Below, one piece after another: positions 10,711 through 17,060 of a DNA stretch of 64,000 nt (its first letter is position 1; each line of letters opens with the position of its first letter). The stretch is from Cryobacterium sp. PAMC25264 (GTDB taxonomy: Bacteria; Actinomycetota; Actinomycetes; Actinomycetales; Microbacteriaceae). Under the pieces are notes generated by a model. The model saw nothing but the letters and a program-made list of their open reading frames with translations. It was not told the origin of the DNA and searched no databases. The position numbers were made by a program, and so were the translations under genes. The stretch lies in contig NZ_CP080383.1 of the NCBI RefSeq assembly GCF_019443325.1, forward strand, positions 124,001 to 188,000. Direction: 5' to 3'.

Positions 10711-12005
10711 GCACGATCGCTCCCGTGAACCAGCCCACTCAGCCGTCGGAGCCGCACGAGGGCCCCGCGACCACCGTCATCAAGAGTTGGAAGGTGCCGA
10801 TCATCCTCGGCGTCTTCACCGTGCTCGGGTTCCTGCTTCTGGTCGTCTTCGGCCGCTCCGGCACCAGCACCATGGTGCTCTCCACCTCCAGTGACCTGAT
10901 CCAGCTGCCGGATGTGCCGCTGCCCACGCTGCCCACCGGCATCGTCGTGACCGTGCTGCTGGCGCTCATCACCGGGCTCAGCGCCTGGATGGTGCAGACC
11001 CGCCGCAAGGTTCCGCTCTGGCTCATCTCGGTCTTCGCGTTCCTGCTCCTGCTCGGCTTCCTGGCCTGGGCATCCGCCGACGCGCGCATCCCCGTGCCCG
11101 GCCTGCTGTTCGGGTCGCTGAGCCTGGCCGTCCCGCTGATCTTCGGCGCCCTCGGCGGCGTCATCTCCGAGCGCGTCGGCGTGGTCAACGTGGCCATCGA
11201 GGGGCAGCTGCTCGCCGGCGCGTTCACCTCGGCCGTCGTCGCGTCGGTCACCCGGCAGCCGCTGCTGGGCCTCGTCGCGGCCATGGTGGCCGGCGTGCTG
11301 GTGTCGTTCGTGCTCGCCGCGTTCTCGATCAAGTACTTCGTCGACCAGGTCATCGTGGGTGTGGTGCTCAACGTGCTTGTCACCGGCGTGACCGGGTTCC
11401 TGTTCTCGCAGGTGCTGGCGCCCAACGCGGAGCTTTTGAACCAGCCGCCCAAGTTCGAGCGCATCAACATCCCGCTGCTCAGCGAGATCCCGATCATCGG
11501 GCCGGTCTTTTTCCGGCAGACGCTGATCGTGTACATCATGTACATCGCCGTCGCCCTGGTCTACTACGGCATCTTCCACACCCGGTGGGGCCTCCGCCTC
11601 CGCTCGGTGGGCGAGCACCCGCAGGCCGCCGACACCGTGGGCATCAACGTCACGGGCACCCGGTTCTGGAACGTCTCCCTCGCGGGAGCCGTGGCCGGTC
11701 TCGGTGGCGCGTACTTCACGCTCGGCTCGGTGGGCGCCTTCGGCAAGGAGATGACGGCCGGCGCCGGCTTCATCGCCCTCGCCGCGGTGATCTTCGGCCG
11801 CTGGGACCCGATCCGAGCCACCCTCGCGGCCCTGCTGTTCGGCTTCGCCAGCAACCTGCAGAACGTGCTGAGCATCATCGGTTCGCCGGTGCCCAGCGAG
11901 TTCATGCTGATGCTGCCCTACCTGGTCACCATCTTCGCCGTGGCCGGACTGGTGGGGAAGTCCCGAGGGCCGGCGGCATCCGGCAAACCGTACATCAAGT
12001 CGTGA
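10707..12005 (+). CDS. nucleoside ABC transporter permease 2
   Basis: A 432-residue permease, partner of the preceding one. After a 25-residue cytoplasmic N-terminus there are about ten hydrophobic segments. The family core is visible as GGVISERVGVVNVAIEGQLLAGAF, the conserved YFVDQVIVGVVLNVLVTGVT and RSVGEHPQAADTVGINV, and near the end GFIALAAVIFGRWDP. This is the YufQ/BmpD group, longer than its partner, with extra N-terminal helices. Its ATG overlaps the end of permease 1 if that frame is restored, and its TGA overlaps an alternative GTG of cdd, so the genes form one translationally linked operon. Confidence 0.93.
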   Translation: MSTIAPVNQPTQPSEPHEGPATTVIKSWKVPIILGVFTVLGFLLLVVFGRSGTSTMVLSTSSDLIQLPDVPLPTLPTGIVVTVLLALITGLSAWMVQTRRKVPLWLISVFAFLLLLGFLAWASADARIPVPGLLFGSLSLAVPLIFGALGGVISERVGVVNVAIEGQLLAGAFTSAVVASVTRQPLLGLVAAMVAGVLVSFVLAAFSIKYFVDQVIVGVVLNVLVTGVTGFLFSQVLAPNAELLNQPPKFERINIPLLSEIPIIGPVFFRQTLIVYIMYIAVALVYYGIFHTRWGLRLRSVGEHPQAADTVGINVTGTRFWNVSLAGAVAGLGGAYFTLGSVGAFGKEMTAGAGFIALAAVIFGRWDPIRATLAALLFGFASNLQNVLSIIGSPVPSEFMLMLPYLVTIFAVAGLVGKSRGPAASGKPYIKS

Positions 12006-12016
12006 CGGAGACTGTA

Positions 12017-12451
12017 GTGACTTCTGACCCCTCAACCCCCACGTCCGGCGACATCGACTGGGGCGAACTGCGCAGCGCGGCCGCCGAGGCGATGACCCAT
12101 GCCTACGTGCCGTACTCGAAGTTCCCGGTCGGTGCGGCGGCGCTCGTCACCGACGGCCGCATCATCAGCGGCTGTAACGTGGAGAACGCCTCGTACGGCC
12201 TCACTCTCTGCGCCGAGTGCGCGCTCGTGTCGGTGCTGCACCTCACCGGCGGCGGCCAGCTCGTCGCCTTCAGCTGCGTCGACGGCGACGGCAACACGCT
12301 GATGCCGTGCGGCCGCTGCCGCCAGCTGCTCTACGAACACTCAGCCCCTGGCATGCTGTTGGAGACCGTCTCCGGCGTGCGCACCATCGACCAGGTCCTG
12401 CCGGACGCCTTCGGGCCCCGCCAGCTCGCCGCCTATCGGGAAGACCACTAA
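12017..12451 (+). CDS. cdd: cytidine deaminase
   Basis: A 144-residue enzyme that deaminates cytidine and deoxycytidine to uridine and deoxyuridine. CNVENASYGLTLCAEC holds the catalytic Cys-Ala-Glu, and PCGRCRQ gives the other two zinc-binding cysteines of the tetrameric (all-Cys) class. I prefer the GTG at 12017 because CGGAG lies six bases upstream. A GTG at 12002 overlapping the permease stop would add five residues. It follows the transporter genes directly and ends adjacent to deoA, so imported pyrimidine nucleosides are processed by the same operon. Confidence 0.93.
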   Translation: MTSDPSTPTSGDIDWGELRSAAAEAMTHAYVPYSKFPVGAAALVTDGRIISGCNVENASYGLTLCAECALVSVLHLTGGGQLVAFSCVDGDGNTLMPCGRCRQLLYEHSAPGMLLETVSGVRTIDQVLPDAFGPRQLAAYREDH

Positions 12452-13765
12452 ATGAGCTCCACCGCCCGCTCCATCGAAGCCTTCGACGCCGTCGACCTGA
12501 TCCACGCCAAGCGTGACAAGGGTGAGCTCTCGACCCCCCAGATCGACTGGCTGATCGACGCGTACACCCGCGGTTACGTCGGCGACGAGCAGATGGCCGC
12601 CATGACCATGGCGATCTTCCTCAACGGCATGTCCCGCCGCGAGATCCGCGACATGACCATGGCCATGATCAACTCCGGCGAGCGGATGAGCTTCGCCGGC
12701 CTCGGCAAGCCGACCACCGACAAGCACTCCACCGGCGGCGTCGGCGACAAGATCACCCTGCCGCTGATGCCCCTCGTGGCCGTCTTCGGCGCCGCAGTGC
12801 CGCAGCTCTCCGGCCGTGGCCTCGGCCACACCGGAGGCACCCTGGACAAGCTCGAGTCCATCCCCGGCTGGCGCGCCAACCTCAGCAACGAGGAGATGTT
12901 CGCCCAGCTGCAGGATGTCGGCGGCGTCATCTGCGCCGCGGGCAGCGGCCTGGCCCCTGCCGACGGCAAGCTCTACGCCCTCCGCGACATCACCGGCACC
13001 GTCGAGGCGATCCCGCTGATCGCGTCGTCGATCATGTCCAAGAAGATCGCCGAGGGCACCAGCGCGCTGGTGCTCGACGTCAAGTTCGGCTCCGGCGCGT
13101 TCCTCAAGGACATCGAGCGCTCCCGCGAGCTGGCCCGCACCATGGTGGCGCTCGGCGAGGACGCCGGGGTGGCCACCTCCGCGCTGCTGACCAACATGAA
13201 CGTGCCGCTCGGCCTGGCCATCGGCAACGCCAACGAGGTGCGCGAATCCCTCGAGGTGCTCGCCGGCGGTGGCCCCGCCGATGTGGTCGAGCTCACCGTG
13301 GCCCTGGCCCGGGAGATGCTCACCCTGGCCGGCATCGTCGACGTCGACGTGGAGGCTGCCCTCAAGGACGGCCGCGCGATGGACAAGTGGAACGCGGTCA
13401 TCCGAGCGCAGGGCGGGGACCCGACCGCCGCGATGCCCGTGGCCAAGGAGACCCACACGGTGCTCGCGGATCGCGACGGGGTGCTCGTGGAGCAGCAGGC
13501 CCTCCCGTTCGGCATCGGCGCCTGGCGCCTGGGCGCCGGACGCGCCCGCAAGCAGGACCCGGTGCAGCACGCCGCCGGCATCGACCTGCACGCCAAGCCC
13601 GGCGACACCGTGCGGAAGGGCGAACCGCTCTTCACCCTTAGCGCCGACGAGCCGGAGCGCTTCGCGCGGGCCCTCGAGGCCGTCGAGGGCGCCTGGCGCA
13701 TCGGCGACCCCGGCGAGCCCGTCCTCGACGGCGGCCCCCTGATCGCCGAGCGCATCACCCGCTAG
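12452..13765 (+). CDS. deoA: thymidine phosphorylase
   Basis: A 437-residue pyrimidine-nucleoside phosphorylase that splits thymidine or deoxyuridine into base and deoxyribose-1-phosphate. DKHSTGGVGDKITLPLMP is the family signature for phosphate and sugar binding. SGRGLGHTGGTLDKLESIPGW and ASSIMSKKIAEGTSALVLDVKFGSGAFL are also diagnostic. The C-terminal domain (about 345-437) carries the usual AAGIDLHAKPGDTV strand. The ATG follows the cdd stop with no gap. A strong hairpin ends the operon about 60 bases downstream. Confidence 0.96.
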   Translation: MSSTARSIEAFDAVDLIHAKRDKGELSTPQIDWLIDAYTRGYVGDEQMAAMTMAIFLNGMSRREIRDMTMAMINSGERMSFAGLGKPTTDKHSTGGVGDKITLPLMPLVAVFGAAVPQLSGRGLGHTGGTLDKLESIPGWRANLSNEEMFAQLQDVGGVICAAGSGLAPADGKLYALRDITGTVEAIPLIASSIMSKKIAEGTSALVLDVKFGSGAFLKDIERSRELARTMVALGEDAGVATSALLTNMNVPLGLAIGNANEVRESLEVLAGGGPADVVELTVALAREMLTLAGIVDVDVEAALKDGRAMDKWNAVIRAQGGDPTAAMPVAKETHTVLADRDGVLVEQQALPFGIGAWRLGAGRARKQDPVQHAAGIDLHAKPGDTVRKGEPLFTLSADEPERFARALEAVEGAWRIGDPGEPVLDGGPLIAERITR

Positions 13766-13818
13766 CTGCGCCGCAGTCCCGCATCCGCGGGCGGCGCCTC
13801 ACGGCCTGCCGCCCGACG

Positions 13819-13859
13819 TGCCACTTGAGGCCCCTTCGCAGACCGCGAAGGGGCCTCAA
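13819..13859. repeat. palindromic repeat copy 1, also the likely deoA terminator
   Basis: TTGAGGCCCCTTCGC (13825-13839) pairs perfectly with 13845-13859 around an AGACC loop. The left end reads TGCCACTTGAGGCC, the same core found in three further palindromes around the nuclease gene. Here the outer right arm (GTGGCA) has decayed. The hairpin probably also terminates the transporter-cdd-deoA operon. Confidence 0.75.
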
Positions 13860-13886
13860 CCGTCATCTCACGCGCGACCACGGTAG

Positions 13887-13943
13887 TGAGTTGCCACTTG
13901 AGGCCGCTTCCGCCGTGGACAGTGGGCCTCAAGTGGCAAGTCA
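13887..13943. repeat. palindromic repeat copy 2
   Basis: A 19-base arm (13887-13905) starting TGAGTTGCCACTTGAGG is matched by its reverse complement at 13925-13943 with one mismatch, around a 19-base loop. The right arm overlaps the stop codon of the adjacent nuclease gene. Confidence 0.8.
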
Positions 13944-14858
13944 GTGTGCGCCGTAGTATGGGCGCCAGCCCCTGGAGCGCAGCGCGTCGTCCACACGAGC
14001 GAGGATCTCCGACGTTGGGGTGTCCTTCACGACGCGGATCACTCGCCAGCCGTCCGCCATCACGTCGTCGAGACGTTCCAGATCGCGGGCGTACTGCACG
14101 CTGTCCGTTCGATGGTGTTCGCCGTCATACTCGATCAGCACGCGGTAGCTCAGGTAGACGAGATCCCCGCGAACCCGCTTTCGGCCCGCACGCAAGGGCA
14201 GATAGATATTCGTCTCTGGTTCGGGGAATCCCGCCCGCAGGATGAGCAGCCGCAGCCGGGTCTCCTGCCGAGACTCCACCCGGGGGCGCACCCACACCAG
14301 AGCCTGCCGGAGGCGCTGGGTTCCTCGCTGTCCGAAACGGTGCGCGACGGCAGCCGTCAGGTCGATCAGTGCCGCCGGAGGGCGACGGGTGCCCAGAAGG
14401 AAGTCGCCGGCCGCGATGAGATCGTCCAGGCCGAGCGTGCTGGCGAGATCGCACCATGTCGTGACGGGTGAGGTGACGGCGAGCCCGTCGACAAGCGACC
14501 TATCTGGCCGGACACTGAACGTGTGGCCGACCACACCCTTCATTCGCGGCGCTCGTTCGGGCGCGACGACTCCGACGTGCAGGCGGGAATCCTGGGAGGC
14601 ACCCTGGGGAAGCGGAATTCCCAGCAGCTGTGCGGCCGTGATGTGGCTGAAGAAGTGGCCGGAAGGCATGCCCGCGGCGTAGGCCTGTGCGAGGCTGCTT
14701 CTCTCGCGTTCGCCGCCGACCAGAACTCGTACCCCGCGGAACGGTATCTCCAAGTCGTTGGCGCGCGTGCGCTTCGTGCTGACCCCGGCGGCGCGGGCAT
14801 CAGCCAGGGTGAAGCCGTTCGGGGCCAGGCGGCGGGGCAGTTCTGAGCGCTTGCGCAT
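13941..14858 (-). CDS. DUF559-like PD-(D/E)XK nuclease with winged-helix N-terminus
   Basis: A 305-residue protein. Residues about 1-60 (LAPNGFTLADARAAGVSTKRTRANDLEI, written here only as a landmark of the region, starts near residue 10) resemble the winged-helix head of AbiEi-like proteins. The middle is poorly characterised. The C-terminus (about 215-300) has RGDLVYLSYRVLIEYDGEHH followed by YARDLERLDDVMADGWRVIRV, matching the Vsr-like DUF559 endonuclease fold with Asp and E-x-D-G as likely metal ligands. Such genes are scattered in actinobacteria without a settled role. It lies opposite to and inside the nucleoside-salvage island, flanked by two palindromic repeats on each side. Another start at 14891 (ATG) with GGTGGA upstream would add 11 residues. 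Confidence 0.75.
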   Translation of the reverse strand: MRKRSELPRRLAPNGFTLADARAAGVSTKRTRANDLEIPFRGVRVLVGGERERSSLAQAYAAGMPSGHFFSHITAAQLLGIPLPQGASQDSRLHVGVVAPERAPRMKGVVGHTFSVRPDRSLVDGLAVTSPVTTWCDLASTLGLDDLIAAGDFLLGTRRPPAALIDLTAAVAHRFGQRGTQRLRQALVWVRPRVESRQETRLRLLILRAGFPEPETNIYLPLRAGRKRVRGDLVYLSYRVLIEYDGEHHRTDSVQYARDLERLDDVMADGWRVIRVVKDTPTSEILARVDDALRSRGWRPYYGAH

Positions 14859-14938
14859 GCGAACACCGTGGCAGATGTCGCCCGTGGGCATCACTAGTTA
14901 TCCACCGGTATCCCCCCCCGCTGCGTTGCAGCGGGCGG

Positions 14939-14995
14939 TGAGTTGCCACTTGAGGCCCATCATGAGCCGTCGAACGGGCGTCAAATGGCAACTCG
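14939..14995. repeat. palindromic repeat copy 3
   Basis: Left arm TGAGTTGCCACTTGAGGCCC (14939-14958) is matched at 14976-14995 by its reverse complement with three mismatches. It lies upstream of the nuclease gene and shares its core with copies 1 and 2. Confidence 0.75.
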
Positions 14996-15011
14996 GCAGA
15001 TCGCGCCGTGC

Positions 15012-15068
15012 CGAGTTGCCAGTTCAGGCCCGTTCGACGGCGCTGAGGGGGCGTCAAGTGGCAACTCA
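15012..15068. repeat. palindromic repeat copy 4
   Basis: The arm 15012-15031 begins CGAGTTGCCAGTTCAGG and pairs with 15049-15068 (GGGCGTCAAGTGGCAACTCA) with a few mismatches around a 17-base loop. It starts 73 bases after copy 3, much as copies 1 and 2 are 68 bases apart. Confidence 0.75.
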
Positions 15069-15145
15069 GATAGATGACGGGCACGGGCACAGGGGCGCGA
15101 GCGGGCGGATGTGGCGGCATCGGGGCGTACACAGCGGTGGGGCGA

Positions 15146-15151
15146 TAGATT
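15146..15151 (+). promoter_or_regulatory. leaderless -10 box for add
   Basis: TAGATT six bases before the GTG at 15158. This spacing supports that GTG as the true start rather than the ATG at 15185. Confidence 0.5.
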
Positions 15152-15157
15152 AGGGAG

Positions 15158-16279
15158 GTGAATACGAGCCCCGAGGAATACCTGATGCCCGGCAGCGGCG
15201 TGAGTATCAACGCACTGCCCAAAGTTTCGCTGCACGACCACCTCGACGGTGGTCTGCGGCCGGCCACGATCATCGAGCTCGCCGAGGCCATCGACCTCGA
15301 CCTGCCCGCCGACACCGAGACCGACCTGGCCGACTGGTTCACCGCCCAGGCCACTTCCGGGTCGCTGGTGGACTACCTCAAAACCTTCGACATCACCGTC
15401 GGCGTCATGCAGACCCACGACTCCCTCGCCCGCGTCGCCCGCGAGTTCGTCGAGGACCTCGCTCTGGACGGCGTGATCTATGGCGAGATTCGCTGGGCAC
15501 CCGAGCAGCACCTAACAGCAGGGCTCAGTCTGGATCAGGCCGTCGATGCCGTGCAGGAGGGCATTGAGGCCGGTATCGACCGTGTCGCCCAGGCCGGGCT
15601 GGTCATCAAGATCGGCCAGGTGATCACCGCGATGCGGCATGCCAAGCGTTCGCTCGAGGTCGCCGAACTCGCCGTGCGGCACCGGGACCTGGGCGTGGTG
15701 GGCTTCGACATCGCCGGCGCCGAGCAGGGTTTCCCCGCCGCCGACCACACCGAGGCGTTCGACTTCCTCGCCCGCAACCTGTTCCCGATCACCGTGCACG
15801 CCGGCGAGGCCGACGGCCTCGACAGCATCCGTGGCGCGCTCTTCGACGGCCGTGCCTTGCGCCTGGGCCATGGGGTGCGCCTGGCCGAAGACATCGAGAT
15901 CGGCCGCGAGGACCAGGACAACACCTACGTCACCCTCGGCCCGCTCGCCCAGTGGGTGCGCGACCGCGAGATCCCGCTCGAACTGAGCCCGTCGTCCAAC
16001 CTGCAGACCGGCGCCATCGCCGCCTGGGGCGATGACATGCTCGACCACCCGTTCGACCTGCTCTACCAGCTGGGCTTCCGCGTGACCGTGAACACCGACA
16101 ACCGTCTGATGAGCGGCACCTCGCTCAGCCGCGAGCTGGCGCTGTTGACGGATGCCTTCGGCTACGACCTCGACGACCTCGAAGCCCTGCAGCTCAACGC
16201 GGCATCGAGCGCGTTCCTGCCGCTCGAGGAGCGCGAAGAACTCGCGGATGCCATCGTCGACGGCTTCGCCAACGCCTGA
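15158..16279 (+). CDS. add: adenosine deaminase
   Basis: A 373-residue zinc enzyme that converts adenosine and deoxyadenosine to inosine. LPKVSLHDHLDGG gives the first two zinc-binding histidines, HAGEADG the catalytic region, LGHGVRLAEDIEI the next conserved His, and VTVNTDNRLMSGTSLSRE the last Asp zinc-ligand region, with TDN in place of the common TDD. WAPEQH is also typical. The length is normal. The GTG start has no usable ribosome site but sits six bases after a TANNNT box, so it may be leaderless. An in-frame ATG at 15185 with GAGGA upstream is the alternative. The product inosine feeds the phosphorylase at 19019-19852. Confidence 0.94.
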   Translation: MNTSPEEYLMPGSGVSINALPKVSLHDHLDGGLRPATIIELAEAIDLDLPADTETDLADWFTAQATSGSLVDYLKTFDITVGVMQTHDSLARVAREFVEDLALDGVIYGEIRWAPEQHLTAGLSLDQAVDAVQEGIEAGIDRVAQAGLVIKIGQVITAMRHAKRSLEVAELAVRHRDLGVVGFDIAGAEQGFPAADHTEAFDFLARNLFPITVHAGEADGLDSIRGALFDGRALRLGHGVRLAEDIEIGREDQDNTYVTLGPLAQWVRDREIPLELSPSSNLQTGAIAAWGDDMLDHPFDLLYQLGFRVTVNTDNRLMSGTSLSRELALLTDAFGYDLDDLEALQLNAASSAFLPLEEREELADAIVDGFANA

Positions 16280-16308
16280 CCCGGCCCACCCCAACCCCGA
16301 AAGCAGCC

Positions 16309-16791
16309 ATGTCGCTTCCCCCGCTTCCCCTCGACGCCATCGACGTCGGCCTGCACGTTCCCGACTGGCGTGCCGCGATCGGCGCCGCGGGAGCGGCGCT
16401 CGAGAGAAGCGGCTCCACCGCCCCGGGCTACACCGAGCGCATGGTGGGTGTGATCGAAGAGTTCGGCGCCTACGTGGTGATCGCGCCCGGGTTAGCCCTT
16501 GCGCACGCCAGGCCGGGGCCCGATGTGCTCACCGAGGGTCTGAGCGTGGTGACCTTGGCCGATCCCGTCGCGTTCGGGCATCCGCACAACGACCCGGTCA
16601 GCGTGGTACTCGGCCTGGCGGTGACCACGGGCGACGAGCACGTGCACTTCGTCGCGGAACTCGCCAACGTGTTCAACGATTCGAGCATCATCCCGGCACT
16701 AGCAGCGGCGCTGGACGCCGAAACCGTACGCTCACTTCTGGGCATTGCGGCACCAACAGGGCACGCAGCCACCGAAGAGGAGTCATCATGA
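16309..16791 (+). CDS. PTS EIIA component (mannitol/ascorbate type)
   Basis: A 160-residue cytoplasmic phosphocarrier of the PTS EIIA type-2 (fructose/mannitol/ascorbate) fold. YVVIAPGLALAHARPG contains His66, the expected phosphorylated residue, and HPHNDPVSVVLGLA is also conserved in the family. The start is an ATG with a modest GAAAG upstream, 29 bases after add. It overlaps the EIIB gene by four bases. No EIIC membrane gene follows, so either a distant EIIC completes it or the pair has a regulatory role. Confidence 0.9.
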   Translation: MSLPPLPLDAIDVGLHVPDWRAAIGAAGAALERSGSTAPGYTERMVGVIEEFGAYVVIAPGLALAHARPGPDVLTEGLSVVTLADPVAFGHPHNDPVSVVLGLAVTTGDEHVHFVAELANVFNDSSIIPALAAALDAETVRSLLGIAAPTGHAATEEESS

Positions 16792-17060
16792 AGATCGTCG
16801 CACTGTGCGGAGTGGGAATCGGCACGTCCGCCATTCTCAAAGTCAACGCCGAACGCGCCCTCGAGCGCCTCGACATCCAGGCGGACGTCACCGCCGCCGA
16901 CATCGCCAGCGTCAAGCTGGCCGCCGCCGACGCTCAGGTCATCCTCACGTCGAGCGAGCTGGTGCCGTCGATCGGCAAGACCAACGCTGACGTCATCATC
17001 ATCGATAACTTCTTCGACCTCGACGAGCTGACCGCCAAGCTCGAAACCGCGCTGGGTTAG
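16788..17060 (+). CDS. PTS EIIB component
   Basis: A 90-residue EIIB of the lactose/ascorbate/galactitol superfamily. ALCGVGIGTSAIL has Cys7 in the phosphate-accepting P-loop, and the remainder follows the small alpha/beta Rossmann-like pattern. It starts inside the EIIA stop (ATGA) at 16788. It would take phosphate from EIIA and pass it to a sugar through EIIC, but the next gene is a phosphosugar mutase on the other strand and not an EIIC. Confidence 0.9.
   Translation: MKIVALCGVGIGTSAILKVNAERALERLDIQADVTAADIASVKLAAADAQVILTSSELVPSIGKTNADVIIIDNFFDLDELTAKLETALG

Follow-up and report, generated by a model that had tools for sequence, protein, structure and literature searches.

We analysed a 64,000 bp stretch of the Cryobacterium sp. 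PAMC25264 genome (one contig of 4.06 Mb; positions 124001-188000, here referred to as the window) in which a single nuclease gene is enclosed by two pairs of related palindromes. We consider it probable that this gene encodes a dimeric, sequence-specific nuclease whose target sites are dispersed palindromes of ~59 bp, forming a convergent analogue of the repetitive extragenic palindromes and their associated tyrosine transposases (REP/RAYT). This reading draws on sequence comparison, by which the flanking layout, a constant geometry, cognate arm families and a block difference between near relatives are apparent, together with the gain or loss of individual families at orthologous sites and conserved catalytic residues.

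Arrangement of the palindromes and the nuclease gene

The four palindromes, each 55 bp in size, are located at 13815-13869 (left pair, outer, with a partly decayed right arm), 13888-13942 (left pair, inner), 14940-14994 (right pair, inner) and 15013-15067 (right pair, outer). The nuclease gene is encoded on the minus strand (13941-14858) and yields 305 amino acids from its ATG, or 317 if translation begins at a GTG at 14894. The last arm of the inner left palindrome (13925-13942) extends over two bases of the nuclease stop codon, and the inner right palindrome is situated between the nuclease start and the adenosine deaminase gene. Mapping of 55 bp palindromes on both sides thus confirmed the first-pass annotation of this DNA, which had described four palindromes as two pairs around one nuclease gene with a right arm overlapping the stop codon. 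The spacings given there were 68 and 73 bases; only the latter was reproduced, since both pairs measure 73 bases from start to start.

With up to 3 mismatches, a 15-mer core of the palindromes was matched 9 times within the window compared to 1.79 expected matches, and none of 100 shuffles reached 9. A scan of window positions 12001-17000 against Rfam gave no match at E-values up to 1.

Features of the encoded protein

The structure model of the 305 amino acid protein (mean predicted local distance difference test score, pLDDT, 94) resembles an AbiEi antitoxin joined to an I-Bth0305I/Vsr-like nuclease, as judged by a VIA search re-examining Foldseek matches. According to profile and fold searches the AbiEi-type two-domain N-terminal fold, here named the head, comprises residues ~3-191 and the nuclease domain residues ~196-298, and in the fold search the latter had a homing endonuclease as its best match. 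Both the fold of AbiEi antitoxins and the Vsr-like catalytic domain of EDxHD homing endonucleases are therefore present, which agrees with the earlier description as a Vsr-like nuclease with a winged-helix head.

An alignment of 72 sequences revealed E199, R203, D232, H249 and R262 as invariant and E243 and D259 as nearly invariant. For DUF559 (PF04480) the protein scored 18.5 bits, which is under the Pfam cut-off of 20.6; this cut-off was passed by 4 of 7 homologues.

Palindromes at homologous nuclease loci

The layout was compared among the best-scoring 92 homologous loci, consisting of 30 loci initially returned, 60 more from the same search list and two paralogues. Palindromes were present at most 400 bp from the gene on the left in 69 loci, on the right in 71 and on both sides in 57, compared to 4 of 92 gene bodies and 37 of 181 far flanks in the same scan. 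They share the geometry of the PAMC25264 palindromes and differ in arm sequence. A stricter centre scan of the 59 loci not named Cryobacterium detected palindromes in 43 and on both sides in 26. Additionally, two of three Arthrobacter plasmid homologues (33-40% identity) were flanked on both sides and the third on one.

Left and right flanks of a locus tend to carry the same arms. A match score of at least 15 was obtained for 69 of 91 loci and for 34 of 400 cross pairs, some of them between related loci. At a threshold of 17 the comparison drew on named genomes, with 80 loci in total. Of 59 loci under names other than Cryobacterium, 56 had flanks long enough to be scored, and 38 of these 56 showed the match in contrast to 1 of 375 cross-genus pairs. 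The top score (169, locus L229) may be due to a local duplication. Against controls from the same locus the match was found in 46 of 68 loci versus 2 of 136 controls.

When aligned at their centres, the different palindrome families have a (C/T)GA anchor in common, on both sides. With even centres it was found at 28 nt in 31 of 60 halves, with odd centres at 27 in 39 and at 28 in 20 of 78 halves, and at every other tested position in 7 or fewer.

PAMC25264 itself contains five other matches to the nuclease, besides one further weak match. The homologue L032 (C1:2485237-2486109) has matching palindromes on either side, which belong to a second family, here named E (CGAACYGTGASTTAAGCACC). This is the larger of the two families of the genome, with 194 arm matches versus 1 control match. 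The idea that other nuclease genes of the genome might likewise be flanked by matching palindromes consequently held for L032; L033 had none, and the weak matches L034-L036 were accompanied by unmatched inverted repeats only.

Gene synteny is common among close homologues, as both neighbours were shared in 55 of 62 pairs with at least 80% identity. Spread by viruses and plasmids was considered and rejected on account of few and weak matches: IMG/VR contributed one locus among the matches listed (34% identity over 69 residues) and no exact palindrome match, a phage collection one record at 30%, and plasmids seven records at about 40% or less.

Dispersed palindrome units

The 18-mer arm of the locus palindromes, here named arm O, was matched 77 times in the PAMC25264 genome with up to 3 mismatches, compared to 8 matches of the reversed control. 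These matches assemble into 28 paired units of four arms each, near offsets 0, 37, 73 and 110 and in the orientation + - + -, with some arms degenerate or shifted by one base. A two-arm pattern gave 56 matches per strand.

The units are symmetric, and most of the 28 have GTGA at the left end. Their arms are conserved, while the spacers are largely random in sequence and nearly fixed in length. Variable positions within the arms match the partner arm at about chance level, so that O sites resemble paired sites for a protein rather than conserved hairpins. A hairpin constraint as a conserved property of this family was ruled out for the same reason.

Protein sites of this kind could be operators of an AbiEi-like repressor, with the flanking copies used for autoregulation, the dispersed copies forming a regulon and the nuclease domain having another task, e.g. 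in defence. The AbiEi-like fold, the behaviour of the arms and the location of the right pair between divergent genes would suit such a regulator, and inverted repeats serve the autoregulation of both AbiEi and Rv2827c, those of Rv2827c being nearly of this size (PMC7319586). We nevertheless regard this as distinctly unlikely. The units are not bound to promoters: among 27 rows compared with the output of a simple open reading frame (ORF) caller, 22 had no overlap (9 convergent, 9 tandem, 4 divergent) and 5 overlapped an ORF call. Furthermore, more than half of the homologous loci have palindromes to the left and right of the gene, a near relative lacks units at orthologous sites, as described below, and the catalytic residues are nearly invariant. 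Dispersed nuclease targets are the reading that we prefer.

Arm families and their cognate nucleases

Arm O was compared across 57 genomes of the genus. All 12 genomes with a nuclease of at least 64% identity (a fragment in G038) contained 2 to 56 matches, with the highest numbers in the two genomes whose nuclease is flanked by O, namely PAMC25264 (56) and G011 (29). Five of the remaining 45 genomes had 1-4 matches. The weak ends overlap: both matches in G055 carry 3 mismatches, as do several in those five genomes.

Similarity of the neighbouring proteins did not predict these numbers. DeoA, the product of the left neighbour gene, is 95% identical in G011 (nuclease 77%), whereas G004 and G024 with 99-100% identity in DeoA have only 3 and 6 matches, respectively. 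This, together with the locus-matched flanks described above (38 of 56 versus 1 of 375, and 46 of 68 versus 2 of 136), makes it highly improbable that we are dealing with ordinary hairpins between genes, or with terminators, whose flanking position and co-distribution were inherited by chance, even though most units of PAMC25264 are intergenic, orphan families exist and one A palindrome occupies a site at which relatives have other hairpins.

Arm A was found 37, 25 and 19 times in its three genomes, followed by G035 (18) and G015 (16). In G009 (L115) and G014 (C29:205709-206598), which have 1 and 2 arm matches of family A, the nuclease matches fall into two pieces and are apparently broken copies. 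Arm E was most frequent in PAMC25264, followed by G007 (151), G006 (99), G002 (98) and G023 (64), and was absent from G018, G029, G034 and G035. Numbers for arm G were 119 in G023, 74 in G048, 67 in G024, 62 in G038 and 45 in G004, with 6-13 control matches across the nine genomes counted, and arm B reached 62 in G005. The numbers for O, A and E, which peak with the cognate enzyme, largely agree with the proposal that copy number follows the nuclease, whereas B and G have clear exceptions.

Arm similarity tracks protein identity (Mantel r 0.63 for 64 loci; at most 0.11 in 999 permutations). The test included 64 of 82 palindrome-bearing loci, the others being without GA anchor, short-flanked or outside the alignment (L092, L106). 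In 65 pairs sharing both neighbours with a nuclease identity below 0.72, arm similarity was below 0.65; conversely, six non-syntenic pairs, all within five related loci, combined an identity above 0.6 with an arm similarity above 0.8. The arm signal beyond total identity was strongest in residues 12-56 and 72-116 (526 pairs), both within the head. In summary of layout and arms, the link between palindromes and nuclease proposed by the first-pass annotation in analogy to REP/RAYT was well founded: the layout recurs with locus-specific arms, and the arms follow the nuclease.

Block difference between near relatives

The nuclease gene of PAMC25264 is located between a pyrimidine nucleoside phosphorylase gene (here named deoA; 12452-13765, plus strand) and an adenosine deaminase gene (here named add; 15158-16279, plus strand). 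Neighbour proteins of G004 and G024 are 98-100% identical to those of PAMC25264 (99-100% for G004) and the nuclease 64%. At the DNA level, PAMC25264 and G004 are 96% identical as far as the stop codon of deoA; in the block that follows, 60-base bins have 46-79% identity, and from about 15101 the value is 96% again. Palindromes and nuclease hence differ together as one block between two 96%-identical alignments, with approximate limits of 13767-15100 and a nuclease part that is 66% identical where aligned. In all 18 of 18 loci the nuclease (50-77%) was less identical than each neighbour found (74-100%).

A homing-type allele drive would offer another explanation, in which the nuclease cuts the rival allele at the locus palindromes, repair copies the whole block and the dispersed copies are by-products. 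The homing endonuclease as best match of the nuclease domain and the block between near-identical flanks speak for it. However, the gene lies between whole palindromes and not inside one, the dispersed arms of a single family reach 194 in PAMC25264, and arms differ in the 65 pairs sharing both neighbours, so that cross-cutting is not evident. We consider this drive unlikely and retain a nuclease with dispersed targets.

Site turnover was followed by comparing O sites of PAMC25264 with G004. Of 24 sites tried, 10 had both flanks (83-97% identical) in the fetched stretches, which had been picked partly by predicted synteny and partly for G-type arms and thus favour G-type arms at the compared sites. 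Two sites (305540 and 575182) were set aside as rearranged, and eight were scored. At 305540 the orthologous G004 locus (L311) contains about 1.2 kb of extra sequence beside the palindrome unit, which is absent from PAMC25264 there.

The O unit was absent in G004 at sites 74223, 103613 and 297001. At sites 1069402 and 2515516 G004 carries less mismatched G-type arms, and in PAMC25264 O units stand beside more mismatched ones; at site 3479419 decayed G-type arms are present in G004 in place of O. One O palindrome was kept in G004 at site 59270. At site 3131279 the first palindrome is common to both genomes, and the second is of O type in PAMC25264 and of G type in G004. Since G-type arms are already present beside O units at several sites in PAMC25264, the differences mostly amount to O being gained or lost, not to replacement.

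When the comparison was reversed, the fetched stretches contained a PAMC25264 orthologue for 7 of 12 G-type clusters, and in 6 the PAMC25264 copy was more mismatched or absent; this comparison is weak because the sites were chosen for G-type arms in G004. As the choice of sites favours the observed outcomes in both directions, the genome-wide counts carry more weight.

A clean insertion with target duplication might apply to one family-A site, which has GCTAG on both sides in G029, is empty in G014 and shows decayed forms in other relatives. The O-type sites, however, have no constant duplication.

Proposed mode of action

In the model that we favour, the AbiEi-type DNA-binding head (~3-191) would be joined to a Vsr/I-Bth0305I-type nuclease domain (~196-298) and would recognise a palindrome of 55-61 bp, i.e. 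two inverted arms of ~18-23 bp around a poorly conserved centre. One monomer may occupy each arm, with the heads on the arms and the two nuclease domains meeting over the variable centre. The gene would sit between such targets, with cognate copies dispersed mostly in intergenic regions, and the arm sequence would be set mainly by the head. A change of the head or a swap of the whole block could then let a new palindrome family grow while the older one decays. Cutting or nicking at the centre, followed by recombinational repair or copying, might spread palindromes to other sites, and the same cutting and repair might exchange the block between alleles and replace the allele. From the sequence comparisons we infer that the protein binds and cuts at the arms, that the block difference stems from an exchange, and that cutting and repair account for both the spread of palindromes and the replacement of the allele.

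More tentatively, and with somewhat less than even confidence, we propose a bacterial counterpart of the PRDM9/hotspot turnover. Here the nuclease would create and keep its own dispersed ~59-bp targets, while the head would evolve, or be swapped together with the targets as a block, so that a new family grows and the old one decays. If true, dispersed palindromic repeats would have an origin independent of Y1 transposases, spread through the Micrococcales.

A number of observations weigh against these proposals. No palindrome was found by the centre scan in 10 of the 92 loci, and L033 (from PAMC25264), L163, L166 and L172, neighbours in the tree printout, are without flanking palindromes of this geometry. 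The expectation that genomes lacking the gene would carry fewer copies was contradicted in part, as G035 has its 18 A arms with only very weak nuclease matches, and G033 has 37 B arms and a single nuclease match flanked by other arms. Arm B was also found in G003 (26) and G012 (22), which like G033 have no B-flanked nuclease among the fetched loci, and only 7 times in G032, whose nuclease it flanks. Arm E occurs 52 times in G004 and 49 times in G024 without an E-flanked nuclease among the fetched loci. Arm G is low in G002 (17, control 8) despite flanking its nuclease, and is present in G053 (38), G055 (35) and PAMC25264 (33), none with a G-flanked nuclease. The Mantel correlation decreased to r 0.32 for non-syntenic pairs alone, and genomes of one genus are not independent samples. 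With respect to turnover, a clean switch of type within one place is documented at a single site, older and more mismatched G-type arms lie beside O units at several PAMC25264 sites, the G-type layer being partly common to both genomes, and O-type empty sites are imprecise with no constant target duplication. Finally, as far as the accessible part of PMC7319586 describes them, the two operator pairs of Rv2827c are 4 bp apart and the AbiEi site of S. agalactiae has a 3-bp gap (49 bp), both unlike the palindromes here.

Comparison with known systems

The locus resembles REP/RAYT systems (REPtrons, REPINs, BIMEs, i.e. bacterial interspersed mosaic elements) in an enzyme gene flanked by cognate palindromes. 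Further shared features, as far as PMC2817692 and PMC3116915 were available, are dispersed extragenic copies, often as doublets, co-evolution and, here largely for arms O, A and E, an abundance following the enzyme. RAYTs are flanked by cognate palindromes, co-evolve with them and diverge more than their neighbours according to the same portion of PMC2817692; faster divergence of the enzyme was also seen here in 18 of 18 loci. The enzyme, however, consists of an AbiEi-like head and a Vsr-like nuclease and is not a Y1/HUH tyrosine transposase. PF01797 had 0 matches in the PAMC25264 genome and matches in 5 of 14 control genomes, in agreement with the first-pass annotation, according to which the central gene is not a Y1 transposase. 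The one-sided GTAG (GT(A/G)G) tag is likewise absent, the units of PAMC25264 being symmetric and other families ending with (C/T)GA on both sides. In addition, the palindromes have a fixed geometry of 55-61 bp, and variable arm positions of the O family do not pair. Without Y1 enzyme and GTAG tag the locus does not belong to REP/RAYT.

With AbiE type IV toxin-antitoxin systems the protein shares the N-terminal two-domain fold and inverted-repeat targets. The operator of Rv2827c (AbiEi family) has nearly the same arm length and within-pair spacing, judging from the available part of PMC7319586. In contrast, the head here is fused to a nuclease, the targets are dispersed as well as located on both sides of the gene, and the gap between pairs differs. 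No AbiEii nucleotidyltransferase toxin was found among the four genes near the nuclease in the window, which refers to this locus only.

The target of I-Bth0305I has nearly the same dimensions as the palindromes, as far as its accessible description goes. Unlike for EDxHD homing endonucleases and Vsr, the putative target is a repeated palindrome flanking the gene as a whole, and the DNA-binding head is different. If the palindrome is the target, the gene is neither inside it nor in an intron (no Rfam match in 12001-17000), and the protein is rare in phage collections, with one weak locus each. Homing into target-bearing alleles would be compatible with the block difference, which is no proof of it.

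Miniature inverted-repeat transposable elements (MITEs) are similar to the palindromes in being short repeats without coding capacity, with ends matching those of a coding element. They differ in that O arms are conserved around largely random interiors, no constant target duplication occurs, and the gene is syntenic among close relatives.

Searches of an open-access library listed nothing that describes a DUF559/AbiEi nuclease paired with palindromes. To our knowledge, Y1 transposases are the only dedicated enzymes known for dispersed palindromes of bacteria. Here the same logic appears to be followed by an enzyme unrelated to them, in which an antitoxin-type head is placed on a homing-type nuclease, so that a pairing of this kind would have evolved two times or more. 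As there are many natural pairs of heads and palindromes, all with a single fixed architecture, it could become possible to read the DNA code of AbiEi heads. Moreover, near relatives with different alleles at one locus render the spread of REP-like repeats and their retention by the host directly testable.

Other hairpins and repeats

The intergenic site orthologous to L184:3001 is occupied by a family-A palindrome in G034, by a GCGACACGCC-like hairpin in six relatives (L273-L278) and by a GAATTCGACGGAG-like one in two others (L281 and L282). A different dispersed repeat of ~70 bp is located at L179:2528-2604, with many matches in G035, G014, G020 and G018.
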